DNA of 64,000 bases, from NCBI RefSeq assembly GCF_019740355.2, contig NZ_CP091819.1, positions 2,728,001 to 2,792,000 of the forward strand, given 5' to 3'. How positions within the stretch are numbered: the stretch's first letter is position 1; every line of letters starts with the position of its first letter. The notes under the pieces are model-generated. The model was not told where the DNA came from. It worked only from the letters and a program-made list of their open reading frames with translations, and did not search any database. Positions 51,462 to 60,422 of the stretch are shown here, one piece after another. This DNA comes from Paracrocinitomix mangrovi (GTDB taxonomy: Bacteria; Bacteroidota; Bacteroidia; Flavobacteriales_D; Crocinitomicaceae). A program made the position numbers and the translations under genes.

Positions 51462-52412
51462 ATGAAAAGGATAGTACTCTTTTTTTGTTTGTTGTTCACA
51501 ATAAACACCCAGGCTCAAACCTGGATTGATCAAAACGCAATTTGGCATTATGAATATACTGGAGTAGCTGAGTGGGGCTATTTTACCTATGAGTATGTTC
51601 AAGACACAATGGTGGGTGGTCAACTTTGTCAGGAGATCGTTCACAAGAAACATACCTTTATGTTATCAGCTCCGCCAAATTCTCAAACAGTATATCTTGG
51701 TCCCAACACCATTAAAAAACATTACACCTATGTAAGCGGAGATACTGTGTTTTACCAAGATAATGGTGAATTTTTTGTGCATGTAAACTATGGCGCAAAT
51801 ATCGGTGATACATGGATAATATCAACCACACACAATGGTAATTCTTATTGTAACGACACTTCTATAGTTGAAGTAATTGATACGGGTTCAGTTGTCATTA
51901 ATACAAATACTTATCGTACTGTTACCCTCTCTACTTTGGAGGGTTCATCATATTTTATGAGTGGATTATTCGTTGAACGCTTTGGAAAGATGAACGTCAA
52001 CTGGGGCAGTTCGCAATTATTCCCTATATACATGGAGTGTGACACTAATGTCATTCAAGAATATTATGCCCTTAAATTCAGGTGTTTTGAAGATGATTCT
52101 TTTCCTCTTTATCACCCATCCGCAGAAGACTGTGATTATCCATTGCAAGAACTTTCAATAGGAGGATTTGATCAATTAATGTTAGAAATTTATCCAAATC
52201 CTGCTAAAGAAACAGTGAACATTAAAAACTTGAATCTACATGAGGTTTCTGATGTTTATCTTACAGATTTTAATGGTAAAAAGATGAAAACAACTTTCAC
52301 TCAAATACAGGGTTCGGTAGTATTTGATATGAGCGCAATAAGTCCAGGAATTTATTTTCTCAACGTTGTTAAAGGCGATCAAAGGCAAATACTCAAAGTG
52401 TTAAAAGAATAA
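51462..52412 (+). CDS. Secreted protein with T9SS type A sorting domain
   Basis: The protein has 316 residues with a signal peptide (MKRIVLFFCLLFTINTQAQ). The beta-rich domain (about 20-230) is related in pattern to the protein at 28539-29450. The C-terminal sorting domain follows (about 243-316; IYPNPAKETVNIK, LTDFNGKKMKTT, ISPGIYFLNVV). Cys pairs occur in the middle (RCFEDD, AEDCDY). Exported by T9SS; function of the passenger domain unknown. Confidence 0.82.
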   Translation: MKRIVLFFCLLFTINTQAQTWIDQNAIWHYEYTGVAEWGYFTYEYVQDTMVGGQLCQEIVHKKHTFMLSAPPNSQTVYLGPNTIKKHYTYVSGDTVFYQDNGEFFVHVNYGANIGDTWIISTTHNGNSYCNDTSIVEVIDTGSVVINTNTYRTVTLSTLEGSSYFMSGLFVERFGKMNVNWGSSQLFPIYMECDTNVIQEYYALKFRCFEDDSFPLYHPSAEDCDYPLQELSIGGFDQLMLEIYPNPAKETVNIKNLNLHEVSDVYLTDFNGKKMKTTFTQIQGSVVFDMSAISPGIYFLNVVKGDQRQILKVLKE

Positions 52413-52463
52413 AATTGTCCATCACTAAAACAATTTCATGCTTACATTCGTCTCTAGTAAACT

Positions 52464-54092
52464 ATGAGCACGAGCTTTTCATACCGTAAAAGAACACGCA
52501 AAGCTATTGGGTTGATCAACCGAATGATTTGGCGGTATGTAAGACTGCATATTGGTAAAAAACTCTTTGGAAAAAAATATTACCAAAAGCGCCTAAATAA
52601 GGTAGAGTTAAAGAATGCTACAGATTTAAAAAATGGCATTTTGGAACTGCAAGGACTTTTCATCAAGTTTGGTCAGCTCATGTCAATCATGTCAAATGTG
52701 TTGCCAAAAGCTTACGGTGAGTTGCTAGAATCACTTCAAGACAAAGCACCCGAGAGTCCACTTGAAAATTGTAAGCAAGTTTTGGAGGCAGATTTAGGTA
52801 AACCCATTGATCAAATATTCAAAGAAATTCCTGAAAAACCTATTGCATCTGCATCAATAGGACAGGTTTATAAAGCAACATTGTTGTCGGGAGAAGTGGT
52901 AGCTGTTAAAGTGCAGCATCAAAATATCAAAGCTTTGGCAGAAGCAGATTTGACCATCATTAAAAAGATGTTGAATCGTGTTTCTTTTTTTATCAAAGTA
53001 AACGGAATGGACTTCGTTTATGAGCAAATCCGCAAAATGATTATGGAGGAGCTTGATTTTGGTAAAGAACGCGTTTCAATGCAGATTGTGGCTGAAAACT
53101 TAAAAGACAATCCACGTGTCAAAGTCCCAAATGTTCATGAAGATTTATGTTCCAATAGAGTACTGGTAACGTCATTTGAAGAAGGAGTAAAAATCACAAA
53201 CATTGAGCAACTAAACAATTGGAATTTAGACGGTGAGGACATTTCAAGAGAACTGATTCTAGCGTATTGTAAAATGGTGCTGGAAGATGGGTTTTATCAC
53301 GCAGATCCGCATCCGGGAAATGTGTTGGTTAATCAGCAGGGTGAGATTATTCTGCTCGATTTTGGTGCTATGGCCGTGCTGAGTGAGAAAATGCGCAAGG
53401 AGATTCCTTTACTATTGCAAGCTGCTTTGAGCCAGGATTATGACAAAGTTTTAACTTCTCTGCAGAGAATGGGCTTTATTGGCGAAACTTCAGACGCCAG
53501 GAAAGTGGCTAAGAAAATAGTGGAAGCTTTTAATAAATTCCTGACCAATGAAATGGAGATCAGTGGGTTTAAAATGACAGATTTAAAAGTGGAAGACATT
53601 AAAGGATCAAGCATTGAAGCGCTTTTGAAAGAGTTGAGTATTTCAGAATTAACCAAAACTATTCAGGTACCAAAAGACTGGGTGTTGTTGAACAGAACTT
53701 TGATTTTGGTAGGTGGAATCTCATCTCAAATTGCTCCGGAACTTGATCCGGTTGAGGTAATTAAACCTTATTTAAAGTCTAAAATGATGTCTTATGATAG
53801 TATCAAATCAATGTTGATGGATGCTATTAAAAAACAGTTCAAAACCTTATTGGCTTTACCGTCTCAACTCAATACATTTTTAGCTAAAGCCAACAATGGT
53901 GAGTTGGAATTGGAGATTAAAAACGATACGCAAAAGTTATATGCCGTAGGCCAGCAATTCATGTTGGTGCTGGGGATTCTGGCCAGTTTGATGTTTTATT
54001 ATTTGGCCAAAGAAGACAATTGGCTTATTGGTACAGTTCTTTTGTCCCTTGTACTCTTAAGATCCGTTTGGAAAAACAGAAAAAAAGGGTAG
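52464..54092 (+). CDS. ABC1/UbiB/AarF-family atypical kinase
   Basis: The protein has 542 residues. Family hallmarks are KFGQ (IKFGQLMS), ASIGQVYKA, VAVKVQ, HADPHPGNVLV and LLDFGAM, which give the KxGQ motif, the Ala-rich loop, the catalytic Lys, and the catalytic and metal-binding Asp residues. Two C-terminal hydrophobic helices (about 495-535) anchor it to the membrane. UbiB proteins support ubiquinone or other quinone biosynthesis; in this phylum menaquinone-related or other lipid roles are possible. Confidence 0.9.
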   Translation: MSTSFSYRKRTRKAIGLINRMIWRYVRLHIGKKLFGKKYYQKRLNKVELKNATDLKNGILELQGLFIKFGQLMSIMSNVLPKAYGELLESLQDKAPESPLENCKQVLEADLGKPIDQIFKEIPEKPIASASIGQVYKATLLSGEVVAVKVQHQNIKALAEADLTIIKKMLNRVSFFIKVNGMDFVYEQIRKMIMEELDFGKERVSMQIVAENLKDNPRVKVPNVHEDLCSNRVLVTSFEEGVKITNIEQLNNWNLDGEDISRELILAYCKMVLEDGFYHADPHPGNVLVNQQGEIILLDFGAMAVLSEKMRKEIPLLLQAALSQDYDKVLTSLQRMGFIGETSDARKVAKKIVEAFNKFLTNEMEISGFKMTDLKVEDIKGSSIEALLKELSISELTKTIQVPKDWVLLNRTLILVGGISSQIAPELDPVEVIKPYLKSKMMSYDSIKSMLMDAIKKQFKTLLALPSQLNTFLAKANNGELELEIKNDTQKLYAVGQQFMLVLGILASLMFYYLAKEDNWLIGTVLLSLVLLRSVWKNRKKG

Positions 54093-54094
54093 TC

Positions 54095-54514
54095 TTACTT
54101 GGCAAATAACTGATCGATATTCTTAAATGATTTGAATTCCAATGCGTTTCCGGATGGATCCAGTAGAAACATTGTAGCCTGTTCTCCTACTTGTCCTTCA
54201 AATCTGATATAAGGTTCAATTACAAATTCAATTTGCAGTGATTTAAGGTGGTCCGCTAATTGTTGCCAAACATCCCAATCTAAAACAACTCCATAATGCG
54301 GAACAGGAACTGCTTTGCCGTCTACAGCATTGTGATGATTCTCTATTTGCATTCCTTCTTTCAAATGCAACACAAATTGGTGACCGTAAAAATTCAAATC
54401 AATCCAATGATCGGATGTTCTACCCGTATCACAATTAAAACACTTGATATAAAAATCATAAGCTTCTTTTAAATTTCTAACCGGAATAGCAACATGAAAG
54501 GGAGTTAAGTTCAT
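54095..54514 (-). CDS. VOC-superfamily (glyoxalase-like) protein
   Basis: The protein has 139 residues. It has the paired beta-alpha-beta-beta-beta modules of the VOC fold: [20 protein letters not shown] in the first, [20 protein letters not shown] and [14 protein letters not shown] in the second. His8, a mid-protein His and the C-terminal Glu would form the metal site. Substrate cannot be told. It converges on the UbiB gene with a 2-bp gap. A 12-bp palindrome lies in the divergent region upstream. Confidence 0.85.
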
Positions 54515-54562
54515 TTTTTCTCTGTTTTGAAATTATTAGCTGATCAAAATTTGAGCAGTAAA

Positions 54563-54574
54563 TGACAATTGTCA
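54563..54574. promoter_or_regulatory. 12-bp palindrome, candidate operator
   Basis: TGACAATTGTCA is a perfect palindrome in the 108-bp region between the divergent VOC and CBS-domain genes, 49 bp from each start. It could bind a dimeric regulator; no candidate regulator is adjacent. Confidence 0.4.
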
Positions 54575-54622
54575 AAATAAGTAGAAATAGTAATGCTACC
54601 TTTATTTTGATAAAGATTAATT

Positions 54623-54979
54623 ATGAGAGTTGAAGAAATTATGTCAACCCCTGTTGTGGTTACCAGGGAAGATACATTGGTTAAACATGCAAGAGATTTA
54701 ATCACCAGAAAAGATGTGAATGCCGTTCCGGTATTAAGGGAAGATGGTGAGATTGCAGGAATAATAAGTGTAAGTGATTTGGCAGCTACTCATTTTGATG
54801 ATAAAAAAGTCAATGACATCATGACAAAAATGGTGCATGTGGTATTGCGTAATAACAGAGTGGTAGATGCTGCAGCTGTTATGGTAAAACACAATGTTCA
54901 TCACCTGGTGGTTATGGAAGAAGGAAAAGTTATAGGGATAGTGAGCTCTTTAGATATTTTAAAGACCATGGTGGATTAA
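54623..54979 (+). CDS. Two-CBS-domain protein
   Basis: The protein has 118 residues forming a single Bateman module: CBS 1 (about 1-56; [36 protein letters not shown]) and CBS 2 (about 60-118; [20 protein letters not shown]). Such stand-alone modules bind adenine nucleotides and regulate other proteins; its partner is not known. The last four base pairs overlap the stop of the truncated ispG copy. Its final codons (GTGGATTAA) are part of the 226-bp duplicated segment. Confidence 0.9.
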
Positions 54980-55196
54980 GGATCAATCCACTCTCCATCA
55001 GATTTGATCAAATCAATAAGCTCTTCTAAAGCATCTGCTTCAGGAATATTTCTTTTAACTACTTCTTTTTCTCTGTAGAGATTGATTTTTCCTTTTCCGG
55101 ATCCTACATATCCGGAATCTGCATCTGCCATTTCTCCAGGTCCGTTTACAATGCATCCCATAATGCCAATTTCAAGCCCTTTAAGATGCTTGGTTT
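54971..55196. repeat. Direct repeat, left copy (ispG 3' end)
   Basis: 226 bp matching 56462-56687 with eight differences by hand count, same orientation. It begins at the last nine bases of the CBS gene and ends two bases into codon 569 of the ispG frame. The copies start 1,491 bp apart and bracket two secreted-protein genes. Confidence 0.93.
54976..55194 (-). pseudogene. ispG: ispG 3' fragment (codons 570-641)
   Basis: This 72-residue remnant of IspG contains the GCIVNGPGE motif with the third cluster Cys but not the CPSC pair, so it cannot be functional alone. Relative to the intact copy it carries three amino-acid changes (E for K, S for Y, R for K) from four of the eight base differences, consistent with relaxed selection. 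It is in frame with, and directly follows, the TAA stop of the gene at 55195-55863. It is not preceded by an evident start; an internal Met at 55161 is a family-internal residue. Confidence 0.88.
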
Positions 55197-55863
55197 AATT
55201 ACATTTACACCCAGAATCATTCTTTTCTTCCATATCCAAATCCCACACGGAAATTTTCTTCTTGGCACCATTCTTTTTTTCAATAAGTGCATTTTTTACA
55301 GCCTCACATGTTTTAAAATAGATTTTTAACACACTGTTTTCAGATCCACTATTTATTTTATACTGACACTTATCTCCTTTAAAAAGGTACCATACACCAT
55401 AATTTTTAAGATTGTCGGGACTGAGGTAAAGTTGATTATTCGGATGGGTTGGGGGTAAAGCTGGAAAAGGTAAATCTTTTTGAGCAATTGATTTTATTGG
55501 AGATGATCTATGATACAATATATAATCGTTATAACATAAATATTTCAGATATGGCACTTGAGTTCCTGGCTTAGTTACTTCTTTGTTTTCATCACTATAA
55601 AATTCTGCAAATTCAGGTTTTAGTTCATATTTCCATTTATTTACGTAATAATTTTTTACATCAGAAAACGCCAGCTTTATTTTATTTCCATTGGCTTTAA
55701 TTAATGTAAATATACCACCAGAGTAATTTCCATTTACTCCTCCCTTATATTTTAACTTTAATTCTATACCTTCCTCTGTCTTTCCATTTAGCAAGGTCAT
55801 TTTTATTTGAGCATTTGTTGTAAATGTTAATGTGACAAGCAAAATACAAAGGAAAATCCTCAT
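55195..55863 (-). CDS. Secreted protein of unknown function (within the ispG repeat pair)
   Basis: The protein has 222 residues with a signal peptide (MRIFLCILLVTLTFTTNAQ). The mature part is beta-rich at the start (KMTLLNGKTEEGIELKLKYK) and has Lys-rich segments and a C-terminal CKC (DSGCKCN). No family recognised. Its TAA stop falls exactly on the left repeat boundary, with the remnant of ispG following in the same frame. The gene may therefore have been trimmed or fused when the duplication formed. Confidence 0.68.
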   Translation of the reverse strand: MRIFLCILLVTLTFTTNAQIKMTLLNGKTEEGIELKLKYKGGVNGNYSGGIFTLIKANGNKIKLAFSDVKNYYVNKWKYELKPEFAEFYSDENKEVTKPGTQVPYLKYLCYNDYILYHRSSPIKSIAQKDLPFPALPPTHPNNQLYLSPDNLKNYGVWYLFKGDKCQYKINSGSENSVLKIYFKTCEAVKNALIEKKNGAKKKISVWDLDMEEKNDSGCKCN

Positions 55864-55983
55864 AGCGTAATAGTTTTATAATCTTATAAAGTTAATGTTT
55901 TTATAATCCTGATTTTGTCTATTTAAGAGATTAAACAGGTTTTTTTCATACTTTTAAATATCATTAACACCAATTAATATTTT

Positions 55984-56442
55984 ATGAAAAAGAACTTTGT
56001 TTTATTGATTTTTCCAGCCATTTATTTTTTGGCTTCTTCTTTTTTTATTAAAAGTGACGCGCCTTCCTTGATTAAAAGTAAATCATGTTACAATGAAAAA
56101 AAAGATGCTACAAAAAAAATTTCTTCCGTACTAGATGCTTTTAAAGATCAAAAGAGAACTTCTGATCCTAATTTTAAATACTTGGGACAAGCGTTCGGGG
56201 GTAAATCCATTGCTCTAACTGAATTAAAAGTTTCTGAGGTTTTAGCGGAAGAAGAAGAATATCATTTGCAATATGCTTCTTATGAAGTAGATGATAAAAC
56301 TTTTTCTGTAGAGTTTTGGGCACCCATGAATGATCAAAAATTAGAAATTGGAGCATCCATTAATGTAAAAGGTGAAGTAGATGCCTTTGAAAATATGGAG
56401 AATAAGTTCATAATTACTCTAGGCTGTGCTGAGTATAATTAG
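55984..56442 (+). CDS. Secreted or membrane-anchored protein, unknown (within the ispG repeat pair)
   Basis: The protein has 152 residues with an N-terminal hydrophobic segment (KNFVLLIFPAIYFLASSFF) that may be a signal peptide or anchor. The mature part has a helical region, then EYHLQYASYEVDDKTFSVEF and a closing IITLGCAEYN with a Cys near the end. No family recognised. It is divergent from the 222-residue secreted gene, with 120 bp between starts. Confidence 0.62.
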   Translation: MKKNFVLLIFPAIYFLASSFFIKSDAPSLIKSKSCYNEKKDATKKISSVLDAFKDQKRTSDPNFKYLGQAFGGKSIALTELKVSEVLAEEEEYHLQYASYEVDDKTFSVEFWAPMNDQKLEIGASINVKGEVDAFENMENKFIITLGCAEYN

Positions 56443-56461
56443 AACCTGTAGATTACAAAAT

Positions 56462-56687
56462 GTGGATTAAGGATCAATCCACTCTCCGTCCGACTTGATC
56501 AAATCAATAAGCTCTTCTAAAGCATCTGCTTCAGGAATATTTCTTTTAACTACTTCTTTTTCTTTGTAGAGATTGATTTTTCCTTTTCCGGATCCTACAT
56601 ATCCATAATCTGCATCTGCCATTTCTCCTGGTCCGTTTACAATGCATCCCATAATGCCAATTTTAAGCCCTTTAAGATGCTTGGTTT
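56462..56687. repeat. Direct repeat, right copy (3' end of intact ispG)
   Basis: Second copy of the 226-bp segment at 54971-55196. It forms the last 72 codons of the intact ispG and the nine bases GTGGATTAA, shared with the end of the CBS gene although no CBS gene lies here. Confidence 0.93.
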
Positions 56688-58392
56688 TGTTTCGAATTTT
56701 AGCAGTTGTTTCTTGTAAATCAAATAAAGTTCGTCCACATGAAGGGCAAGAGATGTACTCTGTTTTGGATATGCGTGTTCTGGTAGCCTGTAAAATTCCA
56801 AAAGCTGTTGAGGTAATCATTTGAGGAGATGCAACATGTTGCGCAGAAATCATCAATCCATCCCCTTTGCCATCAATGAGGTGTGCCCCAAAATCAGTAG
56901 CCGCAAATAACCTGAATTGTTCCTCATCAATTTGTCGATAATGGTAATTCATGATTACAGGAATGTCTATTCCTAAATGCATTAATTCTATAAAAAATCT
57001 ACGCATCCCAAAAATGCTGTTCTTGGCTTTAGCATGTACGAATAAAACGGCTGTCTTATCATTATTCAAAACGTTTGTTAAACGATCTATTTTATCTAAT
57101 TCAAGTGCGTTTACCTCAATAAAATTAATGGATTCAGACTTGTTGGAATTATTTTCGTAATTGTCTGAACTGTGTAAAGGATAAACTTGATTTTTTTCGG
57201 TCCATTTTGATGAATTACAAATGACAGATAAAGTTCCCGGAAGCTCAAAATCGGGTATAATGTTTCCTGTATAGATGTAATCTACAGCCTGCTCTTTAAT
57301 GGTCCATTTATCTTCATTGACATGATAAACATAACCGTATGCAAAAAGGTGTGCGGGTTTAATTTCGTTGAGGTGACTTAAATCTGCAACCACCACCGGA
57401 AAATTGTGGTCCCCAATATTTTGAACTGTTCTGGTCTTTCTCTTGGTGTATTCAAAAGGATTGTAAGGAAGTTCAAAATCAATTTCAGGAACGTTGATAT
57501 CTCTATTGGAATAGCGATCAGCTAACATTCTAGCAACCGGAATTTCGGCTTCGGGAGCCTCAGTTAATGAAACACGAATTGTATCTCCCAAACCGTCCTC
57601 TAACAACGTTCCAATACCAACGGCTGATTTTATTCGTCCATCTTCACCTTCTCCGGCCTCAGTAACGCCTAAATGCAAAGGATATACTCTTCCTCTGTCA
57701 AGCATTCGAGACATTAATAATCTGTAGGCTTGCACCATTACTTGTGGGTTACTTGACTTCATTGAAATGATAATGTCATAGTACTCATGATCTTCACAAA
57801 TATCTACAAACTCCAATGCAGATTCCACCATTCCTAAGGGTGTATCCCCATATTTGCTCATGATTCGGTCAGATAAAGAACCGTGATTGGTTCCGATACG
57901 CATTGATCTTCCCAATTCTTTGCACAAGATGACAAGAGGTGAAAATTTCTCTTTTAATTGTTGCAAAATGGCATCATAAGCCTCATCCGTATATTCGTGA
58001 ACTTCAAACTTCTTCTTGTCTGCGTAGTTACCAGGATTTACTCGAACTTTTTCAACATATTTAGCAGCAATTTCGGCTGCATTAGGCGTGAAATGTATAT
58101 CTGCCACCAAGGGCTGATTATATCCTAAATCCACCAATTCTTGTTTGATAGCTGAAAGATTCTCGGCCTCTTTAATGGATGGTGCAGTAAATCGAACAAT
58201 TTCACATCCGGCTTTGATCATCTCAATGGCTTGTTCAACAGATGCTTTAGTATCCAAAGTATCTGTTGTTGTCATTGATTGTAAACGAAGTGGATTATCA
58301 CCTCCAACACCAACGTTTCCCACCATTACCTCAAGGGTGTTGATGCGCTGGTAGTTTGTCAAACTGTAGCAATATGGAGTATATTTTCTCAC
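56467..58392 (-). CDS. ispG: 4-hydroxy-3-methylbut-2-en-1-yl diphosphate synthase, large form
   Basis: The protein has 641 residues, against about 370 for E. coli IspG: the three-domain form with a central insert (about 290-520) found in Bacteroidota and plants. The TIM-barrel part shows VRFTAPSIKEAENL, RVNPGNYADK and GTNHGSLSDRI. The 4Fe-4S ligands are Cys549, Cys552 (CPSCGR) and Cys583 (GCIVNGPGE). It makes HMBPP in the MEP isoprenoid pathway. GTG 58392 is the start, overlapping the hydrolase stop by 4 bp (GTGA). Its 3' end is duplicated downstream. Confidence 0.95.
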   Translation of the reverse strand: MRKYTPYCYSLTNYQRINTLEVMVGNVGVGGDNPLRLQSMTTTDTLDTKASVEQAIEMIKAGCEIVRFTAPSIKEAENLSAIKQELVDLGYNQPLVADIHFTPNAAEIAAKYVEKVRVNPGNYADKKKFEVHEYTDEAYDAILQQLKEKFSPLVILCKELGRSMRIGTNHGSLSDRIMSKYGDTPLGMVESALEFVDICEDHEYYDIIISMKSSNPQVMVQAYRLLMSRMLDRGRVYPLHLGVTEAGEGEDGRIKSAVGIGTLLEDGLGDTIRVSLTEAPEAEIPVARMLADRYSNRDINVPEIDFELPYNPFEYTKRKTRTVQNIGDHNFPVVVADLSHLNEIKPAHLFAYGYVYHVNEDKWTIKEQAVDYIYTGNIIPDFELPGTLSVICNSSKWTEKNQVYPLHSSDNYENNSNKSESINFIEVNALELDKIDRLTNVLNNDKTAVLFVHAKAKNSIFGMRRFFIELMHLGIDIPVIMNYHYRQIDEEQFRLFAATDFGAHLIDGKGDGLMISAQHVASPQMITSTAFGILQATRTRISKTEYISCPSCGRTLFDLQETTAKIRNKTKHLKGLKIGIMGCIVNGPGEMADADYGYVGSGKGKINLYKEKEVVKRNIPEADALEELIDLIKSDGEWIDP

Positions 58393-59339
58393 TTATTGAA
58401 TTGCTTCAACCACGTGGTGATTGTTTTAGTCAGTTTTTTATGAAGTGGTAAATCCGGATCAGAATAAAGTTCAAGTTGAGCCATCATGTTCTCCTCTTTG
58501 GTGAACTTTAATATGTGATTCATATTGCTGATGATAGCATATTTAGCATCTTTTTGTGCTGCTTGCAATTTCTCAGCTTGTTCTACAGTCACTTGAATAT
58601 CTGTTGTTCCATTGATTATTAACAAGGGTACTTTCAGTTTTGCTGCTTGCTTAGCGGGATCATATTTCATCCATGAAATTAAAAACGGTTGTACTGATGG
58701 ATGAAATAATTCGGCTAATACTCCTGGAGTTGTAGTCAGGGTGTCTCCACCTGCAAGTGTATCTAAATAGGCACCTACTAAGCCTTGTTGTTCTGGTTTT
58801 AATGTTCTACTCAATTGCCATTTTAGAATGTTGTGAATGGGCTCTCCTGCTCCAGCCAAAGAAATAACACCATCAACATTTTCGCACTGATTTGCTGCAC
58901 AAAGCGCCACCAAAGATCCTTGACTGTGTCCTGCCAAAATAATTTGATTAAAGCGAACATCAGCTGCATACTTATTGCTCCAACCTACTGCATCTTCTAT
59001 AAAGCTGTCAAAAGAAAGTTTGGAAGGATCTAAGTCTTCTATTTTACTCTCTGCAATTCCTCTTTTGTCATATCTCAATACTCCGTAACCACTAGAAGCT
59101 AATGATTCGGCCAACATTTTTAAGGAGTTGTTTTTCATTTGAGGGTTGTTCCCATTTCTGTCTGTGGGTCCTGAACCGGCTATTAATATAACCAATGGTT
59201 GAGCAACTGATGGATCATCAGAAGAAAGTAAAGTTCCTTTAATTGTTACCTCATTTTGTGCCAATTCAACTTGTTCTTCAGAATATCCAAAGGCGTTGAA
59301 AAGCAAGAAAACAAATATGATTAAGCTAGTGTGTTTCAT
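58389..59339 (-). CDS. Secreted alpha/beta hydrolase
   Basis: The protein has 316 residues with a signal peptide (SLIIFVFLLFNAFGYSE). The alpha/beta-hydrolase fold shows LVILIAGSGPTDRNGNNPQ (oxyanion region), a GHSQGS nucleophile elbow, LLIINGTTDIQV (acid) and a late His in SNMNHILKF. Family members are esterases or dipeptidyl-peptidase-like. It is translationally coupled to ispG (4-bp overlap); a functional link is not evident. Confidence 0.85.
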   Translation of the reverse strand: MKHTSLIIFVFLLFNAFGYSEEQVELAQNEVTIKGTLLSSDDPSVAQPLVILIAGSGPTDRNGNNPQMKNNSLKMLAESLASSGYGVLRYDKRGIAESKIEDLDPSKLSFDSFIEDAVGWSNKYAADVRFNQIILAGHSQGSLVALCAANQCENVDGVISLAGAGEPIHNILKWQLSRTLKPEQQGLVGAYLDTLAGGDTLTTTPGVLAELFHPSVQPFLISWMKYDPAKQAAKLKVPLLIINGTTDIQVTVEQAEKLQAAQKDAKYAIISNMNHILKFTKEENMMAQLELYSDPDLPLHKKLTKTITTWLKQFNK

Positions 59340-59438
59340 CCTATAATTTTAACGAAGCTATATTACTCATTTCGAATCAGGCGAACAAATATTGTAGGTT
59401 ACTTCGCATAATTCTTAACAAATGAAAAGAAAAGTTGT

Positions 59439-60422
59439 TTACCCCTTGATTCTCAAAACGGAATGTTGGGATGCTGTTAAAAAATCTCGATAACAAATAT
59501 TGATAGGGTTGTCCATGTCCAATGCTGTCATTCCCAGTTTTCCAAATAACAGATTGCTTTCTTCCCTACATTTAGCATTGTGAAGTCTGATGGCTTTGCT
59601 CAAGTTCATTTCTGTTTCTGCAGTTGCATTTCCCGCAAGATGTTCATTCCAGAATTGAGTACCCAAATCCATTATTTCATTCCAACGAATTTTTGCTGCT
59701 TGCTCGTTATTGAAAATATTATCTGACAGTTTTTGCATTCTGTCTTCATCCAAAACCATATCACTTTCATGTAAGTTGGCAATTACATTTTTGGCAAGAT
59801 CAATCAATCTGGCATGTAGACCTTCAACCACGCCAATAAAACACATTTCGGCAAACAATAAAAAGGACATACCTTGAGCTGGATGATTTATAGATACTGG
59901 TTTTTCAAGACTAAAAACATCTTCATCAGGGACAAAAACATCCGTTAAAGAAACATCATGGGTGTCTGTATTTCTCATTCCCAAAGCGTTCCAGACGTCA
60001 TGAACTTTTACTTTCTCAGCAGGAACACAAAAGGTTAAAACAGATCCGTTATCTTCTCTAATAGCATTGAATGTAAAAGTTGTTGCGTTTTTACCTCCGC
60101 TACAATATTTCCAATGTCCCGATATTTGCCAACCCCCGTCTGCTTTAATTGCTTTACCGGTAGATGCCCCGGACCCTGCTATCAAGGAGTTTTTTGGTGC
60201 AAAAACACGCTCAGCAGTTTGGCTTAACATATATGCACTGAAATAATTTCCACCTGTTCCAATGGCAACAGACCAACCTAAATCCCCATCTGTGTATGCA
60301 AGAGATTTAATTAATTCTGTACCACTGACAATGGATTCATTTCTTCCTCCAAAATCTTCTGAAAGAAATAGTTTGTAAAGATTTTCTTGAATGCCCTTTT
60401 TGTATAATTCTTCTCGAATCAT
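59439..60422 (-). CDS. Short acyl-CoA dehydrogenase-like flavoprotein
   Basis: The protein has 327 residues, shorter than the usual 380-400 of the family. The N-terminal helical part contains [20 protein letters not shown], the middle beta domain [20 protein letters not shown] and [12 protein letters not shown]. The C-terminal end [12 protein letters not shown] resembles the flavin-dependent monooxygenase branch (HsaA/DszC-like) more than true dehydrogenases. It likely binds FMN or FAD; substrate unknown. Its start overlaps the metG stop by 4 bp (ATGA). Confidence 0.78.

Follow-up and report, generated by a model that had tools for sequence, protein, structure and literature searches.

How did two small genes with secretion-type starts come to lie between two copies of the 3' end of ispG, and by which route could they have been placed there while this essential gene stayed whole? 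The question is raised by a window of 64,000 nucleotides from Paracrocinitomix mangrovi (contig NZ_CP091819.1, positions 2,728,001 to 2,792,000), the window being the whole stretch of DNA that was analyzed. An original prediction, made from the letters and a list of open reading frames (ORFs), had likened the arrangement to an element that enters the 3' end of a gene and restores it. Here, we compare the locus with related genomes, estimate how often gene tails are duplicated elsewhere, and weigh the routes by which the arrangement could have arisen. Of these, ordinary recombination is the most likely, ahead of a dedicated mobile element.

The repeat and the genes it encloses

Self-comparison of positions 52000-60000 returned a single two-copy family, a 226-nt direct repeat with a start-to-start spacing of 1,491 bp (Table 1), and a base-by-base count confirmed the eight differences that had been counted by hand between the left and right copies (3.5%). 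In the 4,365,762-bp single-contig genome the 226-bp segment matches these two places only (E <= 0.001), and given that the copies differ, they are not a simple assembly duplicate. The repeat unit comprises the final 72 sense codons of ispG with its stop codon, preceded by two bases and followed by five; beyond these limits, the sequences adjoining the two copies do not match each other. The left copy is open in reading but headless, with the CBS gene at its far end. As predicted, the two genes between the repeats are divergent and the intact ispG ends in the right copy; this ispG is 83% identical to the orthologue in G001 and 78% identical to that in G003, both from the same genus.

Table 1 Features of the duplicated ispG tail in the window, and the corresponding duplication in a second genome of the family (G511)
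Feature	Position	Strand	Size	Description
CBS-domain gene	54623..54979	+	118 aa	presumed original downstream neighbour of ispG; Pfam CBS, E 2.7e-24
Left repeat copy	54971..55196	-	226 bp	probable displaced ispG 3'-end remnant, taken as non-functional
Insert between repeats	55197..56461		1,265 bp	GC 0.294
Cargo gene A	55195..55863	-	222 aa	signal-peptide-like start by reading; orphan
Cargo gene B	55984..56442	+	152 aa	signal-peptide-like start by reading; orphan
Right repeat copy	56462..56687	-	226 bp	working 3' end of intact ispG plus five bases
Intact ispG (GcpE)	56467..58392	-	641 aa	Pfam GcpE, E 1.1e-123
G511 ispG-tail duplication	contig C164, L210:1498-2786			around a Ycf48/BNR-type protein gene

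Both edges of the left copy run into genes. The original prediction had described nine shared bases, GTGGATTAA, as the end of the CBS gene on the left that is orphaned on the right. The CBS ORF does end in GTGGATTAA, but its last four bases lie inside the ispG-tail remnant, and five of the nine (GTGGA) are common to both copies beyond the ispG stop codon. At the other edge, the insert contributes one base and the left repeat two to the stop codon of cargo gene A, and hence cargo A may have been cut at this junction. Within the left repeat, two adjacent changes complete a perfect 8-bp inverted repeat at 55095-55117 that is unreported for the right copy. A template-switch (quasi-palindrome) mutation would give such a pair of changes, and the eight differences may then amount to seven events.

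The GC content of the insert lies below that of the 5-kb flanks (0.360 and 0.372), and when the window's 58 non-overlapping ORFs with at least 110 aa are compared, a single one is lower in GC than cargo A and three are lower than cargo B. No second copy of the insert occurs in the genome beyond chance-level short matches. Neither cargo protein has a Pfam family above cut-off or any match in NCBIfam or PADLOC, cargo B has no PDB sequence match, and a search of 58 other relatives found neither protein. Wider samples gave weak partial matches to cargo A in 4 of 394 other phylum genomes (E 5.7e-6 to 0.007) and, among 199 other family genomes, weak matches to cargo B in two (E 0.001 and 0.002). Pattern searches returned no relative of cargo A in genome contigs and none of either protein in viral contigs, and fold predictions (mean pLDDT 40.4 for B and 38.4 for A) were set aside as a clue to the cargo. 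In terms of mobility genes, Pfam and NCBIfam recognized no integrase or transposase family in the two ORFs of the insert, and none was recognized in 19 of the 20 other ORFs of at least 90 aa between 40566 and 63415. A search for terminal inverted repeats, in which a match had to start within 20 bases of both insert ends, gave no ungapped inverted match of 10-30 nt at >=85%.

To judge which tail is the kept one, the seven codons that differ between the copies were compared with three same-genus relatives. The left copy alone departs in amino acid from all three at tail codons 7 and 26 (0-based). At tail codon 18, where the difference is silent, the left codon occurs in none of the three, and the other four differing codons show a mixed pattern. 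Given that both amino-acid departures are in the left copy, it is the left copy that seems to drift and the right copy that seems to be kept. These departures, together with an AT-rich cargo that was not found in 58 other relatives, fit the predicted insertion better than an old tandem duplication. The original prediction had also taken the CBS-ispG junction to be ancestral. Four CBS homologues measure 117, 118, 120 and 121 aa (two of the six other loci read, L044 and L045, lie on the other strand and are left out), close to the CBS gene of the window, and these lengths favour CBS-ispG as the original junction, but the junction itself was seen in no relative. The C-terminus of the CBS protein was discarded as a polarity marker, given that its length is conserved and its last residues are not.

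The ispG locus in relatives and a second case

An ispG match was obtained in 34 of 39 genomes, the source genome included, and a different gene follows ispG in each of the three same-genus relatives. In G001 it encodes a 466-aa protein, membrane-type by reading, and in G002 a 264-aa protein with a secretion-type start, as far as the 3 kb after ispG allow in a genome where ispG is split over two contigs. In G003, a 278-aa TPR-containing protein with a secretion-type start is followed by a glyoxalase gene, which is also present in the window and in G003 lies ~1 kb from ispG with no CBS gene between. No close CBS homologue was found in G001, and those of G002 and G003 are on contigs other than that of ispG. 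The repeat, the cargo and an empty CBS-ispG site were seen in 0 of the 3 same-genus genomes. Hence, the predicted empty-site allele did not turn up there, and neither did the arrangement shared by all close relatives that would have indicated an old tandem duplication. Searches of relatives, phylum and family samples and contigs likewise gave no donor with ispG beside these cargo genes, no circle and no empty site.

A profile search with the ispG tail found a match in 210 of 240 family genomes and more than one match in two of the 210, namely the source genome and G511; an earlier draw of 200 family genomes had given more than one tail in 2 of 180. With so few such genomes, a fixed hotspot at ispG was rejected. 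G511 is a metagenome-assembled genome from another genus of the family, with about 580 contigs and a completeness of 67. Its ispG frame is open to the contig edge and has a normal end. The gene after it, of 337-348 aa, has Ycf48/BNR-type domains and a lipoprotein-like start, and behind this secreted-protein gene follows a decayed tail (~175 bp, 88.6% identity) in which a gap of one base causes a frameshift. Other cargo between ispG-tail repeats, for which a search had been suggested, is thus found here in the form of a different secreted-protein gene. The upstream repeat boundary lies ~50 bp nearer the stop codon than in the window, and the downstream boundary is approximately at the stop codon, compared with five bases past it in the window. 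The differing boundaries speak against a fixed attachment site, in a comparison of two events only and with a G511 copy whose decay could hide part of the repeat. The 158-aa downstream neighbour in G511 was found in 0 of the 122 other loci searched, which leaves no empty site there either.

No further case was added by searches at individual ispG loci. A second ispG tail at E 0.01 was found in 0 of 109 loci (29 from the family or order with 1.5-kb flanks and 80 other contigs), and G511 was the one clear case in a nucleotide self-search at looser settings, which covered 122 of 123 loci, the remaining one being dropped for lack of a tail. Weak short matches at E <0.01 occurred in L078 (40 bp), L220 (32 bp) and L035 (19 bp), with L084, L110, L211 and L215 among the others; the match in L078 was inspected as a possible second tail and judged to be chance.

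Gene-tail duplications at other genes

As a yardstick for duplicated gene tails in general, we used a sample of 3,464,771 bases (2,828 non-overlapping ORFs, each at least 100 aa long), which combined 1.264 Mb of the source genome, 0.8 Mb of G510, G473 and G484, and 95 loci. Repeat pairs numbered 14 in the loci, 42 in the genome blocks and 9 in a stricter run on the source genome itself. By ORF reading, one clear (L121) and one possible (L099) gene-tail duplication lie outside ispG, on a yardstick that is rough, given manual classing, loci fetched around ispG and varied thresholds. If the background is taken as one or two events, the P for a single additional ispG case among 209 is 0.07 or 0.14, again a rough figure. 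Preferred use of ispG as a site is thereby suggested, with a recurrence that is not clearly beyond background.

The clear case is in Pedobacter puniceum (NZ_WKJI01000003.1, L121:2161-3446), where the end of a 160-aa gene is duplicated over ~159 bp at 88.7% and brackets a ParD/ParE toxin-antitoxin pair, the ParD match covering profile positions 33-78 of 81 only. This is the same architecture at another gene. The Marinoscillum pacificum locus (L099:140-882) has a 65-bp direct repeat (94%) around ~610 bp with one 114-aa ORF and is possibly a smaller example of the same type of scar.

Two related arrangements were left out of the count. The 398-bp front part of a lipoprotein gene in G510 (146845-149836, L221-L240 joined) recurs 2.2 kb away at 89% (146845/149439), with the second copy in a shorter, truncated ORF and two other ORFs between, and L119 has a second, broken copy of a whole gene. 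A repeat at genome positions 2898347/2899273 (268 bp, 96.6%) resembled the ispG case and was rejected, given that it belongs to two tandem 286-aa ORFs. These ORFs (C1:2898347-2899540, L186) share the 268-bp 3' part and differ at their starts, and by sequence this suggests a recent conversion of the C-terminal part.

Possible routes of insertion

The reading that we prefer, with slightly better than even confidence, is that incoming DNA carried an ispG 3' end and recombined through it, which displaced the old tail. We infer ispG homology on the incoming DNA, a circle or one-sided route, RecA, and CBS-ispG as the ancestral order. Foreign DNA with an ispG 3' end linked to two secreted-protein genes would enter the cell and integrate through this homology by general (RecA-type) recombination. 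The simplest route would be a single crossover with a small circle; alternatively, a linear piece could have recombined by homology at one of its ends, with the other end joined illegitimately. The product would have the order CBS, old tail, cargo, new tail and ispG. Since ispG would keep one complete tail, the essential gene would stay intact; the tail next to CBS would be a remnant that drifts. The other cargo and other boundaries of G511 are expected if homology, and not a fixed site, sets the ends. Homology alone leaves the first joining of tail to cargo at both ends unexplained.

Differences between the copies fall at third codon positions in 5 of 8 cases in the window and 11 of 18 in G511, together 16 of 26. 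This lean (P 0.003 against one third) fits copies that are diverged alleles. Compared with one half, the P is 0.16, and the lean is also compatible with a copy made within the genome, if the working tail accepts silent changes; it was therefore not taken as proof of a foreign allele.

Recombination of this kind has precedents. Among Escherichia coli lacZ integrants, a PCR product indicating duplication was obtained from 56 of 60, and sequencing of 14 showed duplicated stretches of 109-950 bp, which the authors read as single crossovers with a circle (PMC3240628). As is proposed for the window, foreign DNA is bracketed by a partial duplication of the target gene and no dedicated recombinase is involved, although those integrants came from a laboratory conjugation plasmid under selection, whereas the present case is natural and has copies that differ by 3.5% (PMC3240628). 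The true one-sided events in that study (HFIR, 4 of 60) gave deletions, not duplications (PMC3240628), which weakens the linear one-sided variant and places the circle above it. For rhs tips, a single-crossover model with circular intermediates has been proposed (PMC2935791). There, too, a new 3' end with linked genes is added and the old fragment is shunted to a silent downstream place, and the leftover fragments vary in length. However, rhs ends are variable, whereas the end displaced here is the same conserved tail, from the gene of an essential enzyme; the rhs core was identical in its attached and detached copies, whereas the ispG tails differ by 3.5%; and the ispG locus has only one displaced tail (PMC2935791). 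Homology-facilitated illegitimate recombination has been proposed for Vibrio cholerae T6SS effector-immunity arrays (PMC5361080), which share with the one-sided route a homologous and an illegitimate end and the shift of old gene parts downstream, but which retain immunity genes, in contrast to an ispG leftover that has no apparent function (PMC5361080).

Break-repair insertion would need no homology on the incoming DNA, and we consider it unlikely. Staggered nicks ~226 bp apart would be filled in and a stray fragment captured, so that the target is duplicated; gene tails would be seen because only insertions whose duplication rescues the gene end survive. The duplications in G511 and L121 end at other distances from the stop codon, which is what random target ends would give, no sequence is common to both sides outside the repeat, and tandem duplications at breaks are the topic of eukaryote papers. 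A fresh copy, however, would gain differences only later, and the copies here differ by 3.5% with a third-position lean. No Ku gene was found in the genome by a search that was positive in just 1 of 14 control genomes and thus had a weak control; its absence lowers break-repair capture only a little, given that end joining could proceed free of Ku. The E. coli precedent, the rhs model and the Vibrio arrays make general recombination the better bet.

A reduced site-specific element in the ispG 3' end, which supplies a tail and whose integrase is lost or acts in trans, seems improbable to us. The geometry is that of prophage e14, which in icd leaves a 163-bp icd' fragment (PMC6379469): the 3' end of a gene is replaced by a supplied copy, with a pseudo tail of similar length, and the family does hold a second ispG case. 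But e14 is a prophage with site-specific integration (PMC6379469), and at ispG there is no shared boundary, nor was an integrase recognized in the insert or among 19 of the 20 nearby ORFs surveyed. The upstream boundaries of the two ispG cases are ~50 bp apart, and of the 210 family genomes that the tail profile matched, only 2 have more than one tail. Pattern searching of viral contigs turned up no relative of the tail, and identity to it stays under 80% in all of the matching plasmid (18) and phage (4) records. The lack of a recognized recombinase and the different boundaries in G511 also tell against the dedicated cassette or integrative element that had originally been envisaged.

Local rearrangement, either as a tandem duplication of the tail with cargo added later or as a move of CBS with an ispG fragment to a place beside the cargo, is highly improbable. 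The flank does turn over, as each of the three same-genus relatives has a different gene behind ispG, and in G003 the glyoxalase gene stands close to ispG without CBS. Against this, two events would be needed, the CBS ORF has the length of its homologues, which is unlikely after cut and fusion, and the genome holds no second cargo copy. A DNA transposon or insertion sequence is not supported, given the lack of terminal inverted repeats and of a transposase in the insert, and 226 bp is far above the usual transposon target duplications.

Among the literature matches listed, judged by titles and abstract openings, nothing described ispG or gcpE as an integration site, genomic island or direct-repeat locus, and nothing on the ispG locus appeared under the family name combined with direct repeats, transfer or duplication; one 'ispG' match was the name of an insertion sequence, not the gene. 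The kind of event that we propose, displacement of a gene tail by homologous recombination, is known. Its place is less usual: an essential conserved gene, with orphan secreted-protein cargo, and twice in one family. A wider and decidedly doubtful reading is that there is a pool of cassettes without a recombinase, for which housekeeping genes provide homology anchors in their conserved 3' ends. Each would consist of a gene tail with one or two small genes, for secreted proteins or toxin-antitoxin pairs, would circulate as a circle and would integrate by general recombination; ispG in this family would then be an anchor used at least twice with different cargo.

If toxin loci are not the only places where tail displacement works, and ordinary essential genes can undergo it too, small orphan genes could be gained without the machinery of mobile elements. 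The scar that it would leave, a decaying duplicate of a conserved gene tail, could be searched for in any genome, and the recurrence at ispG with different secreted-protein genes offers one concrete place in which to test this route.
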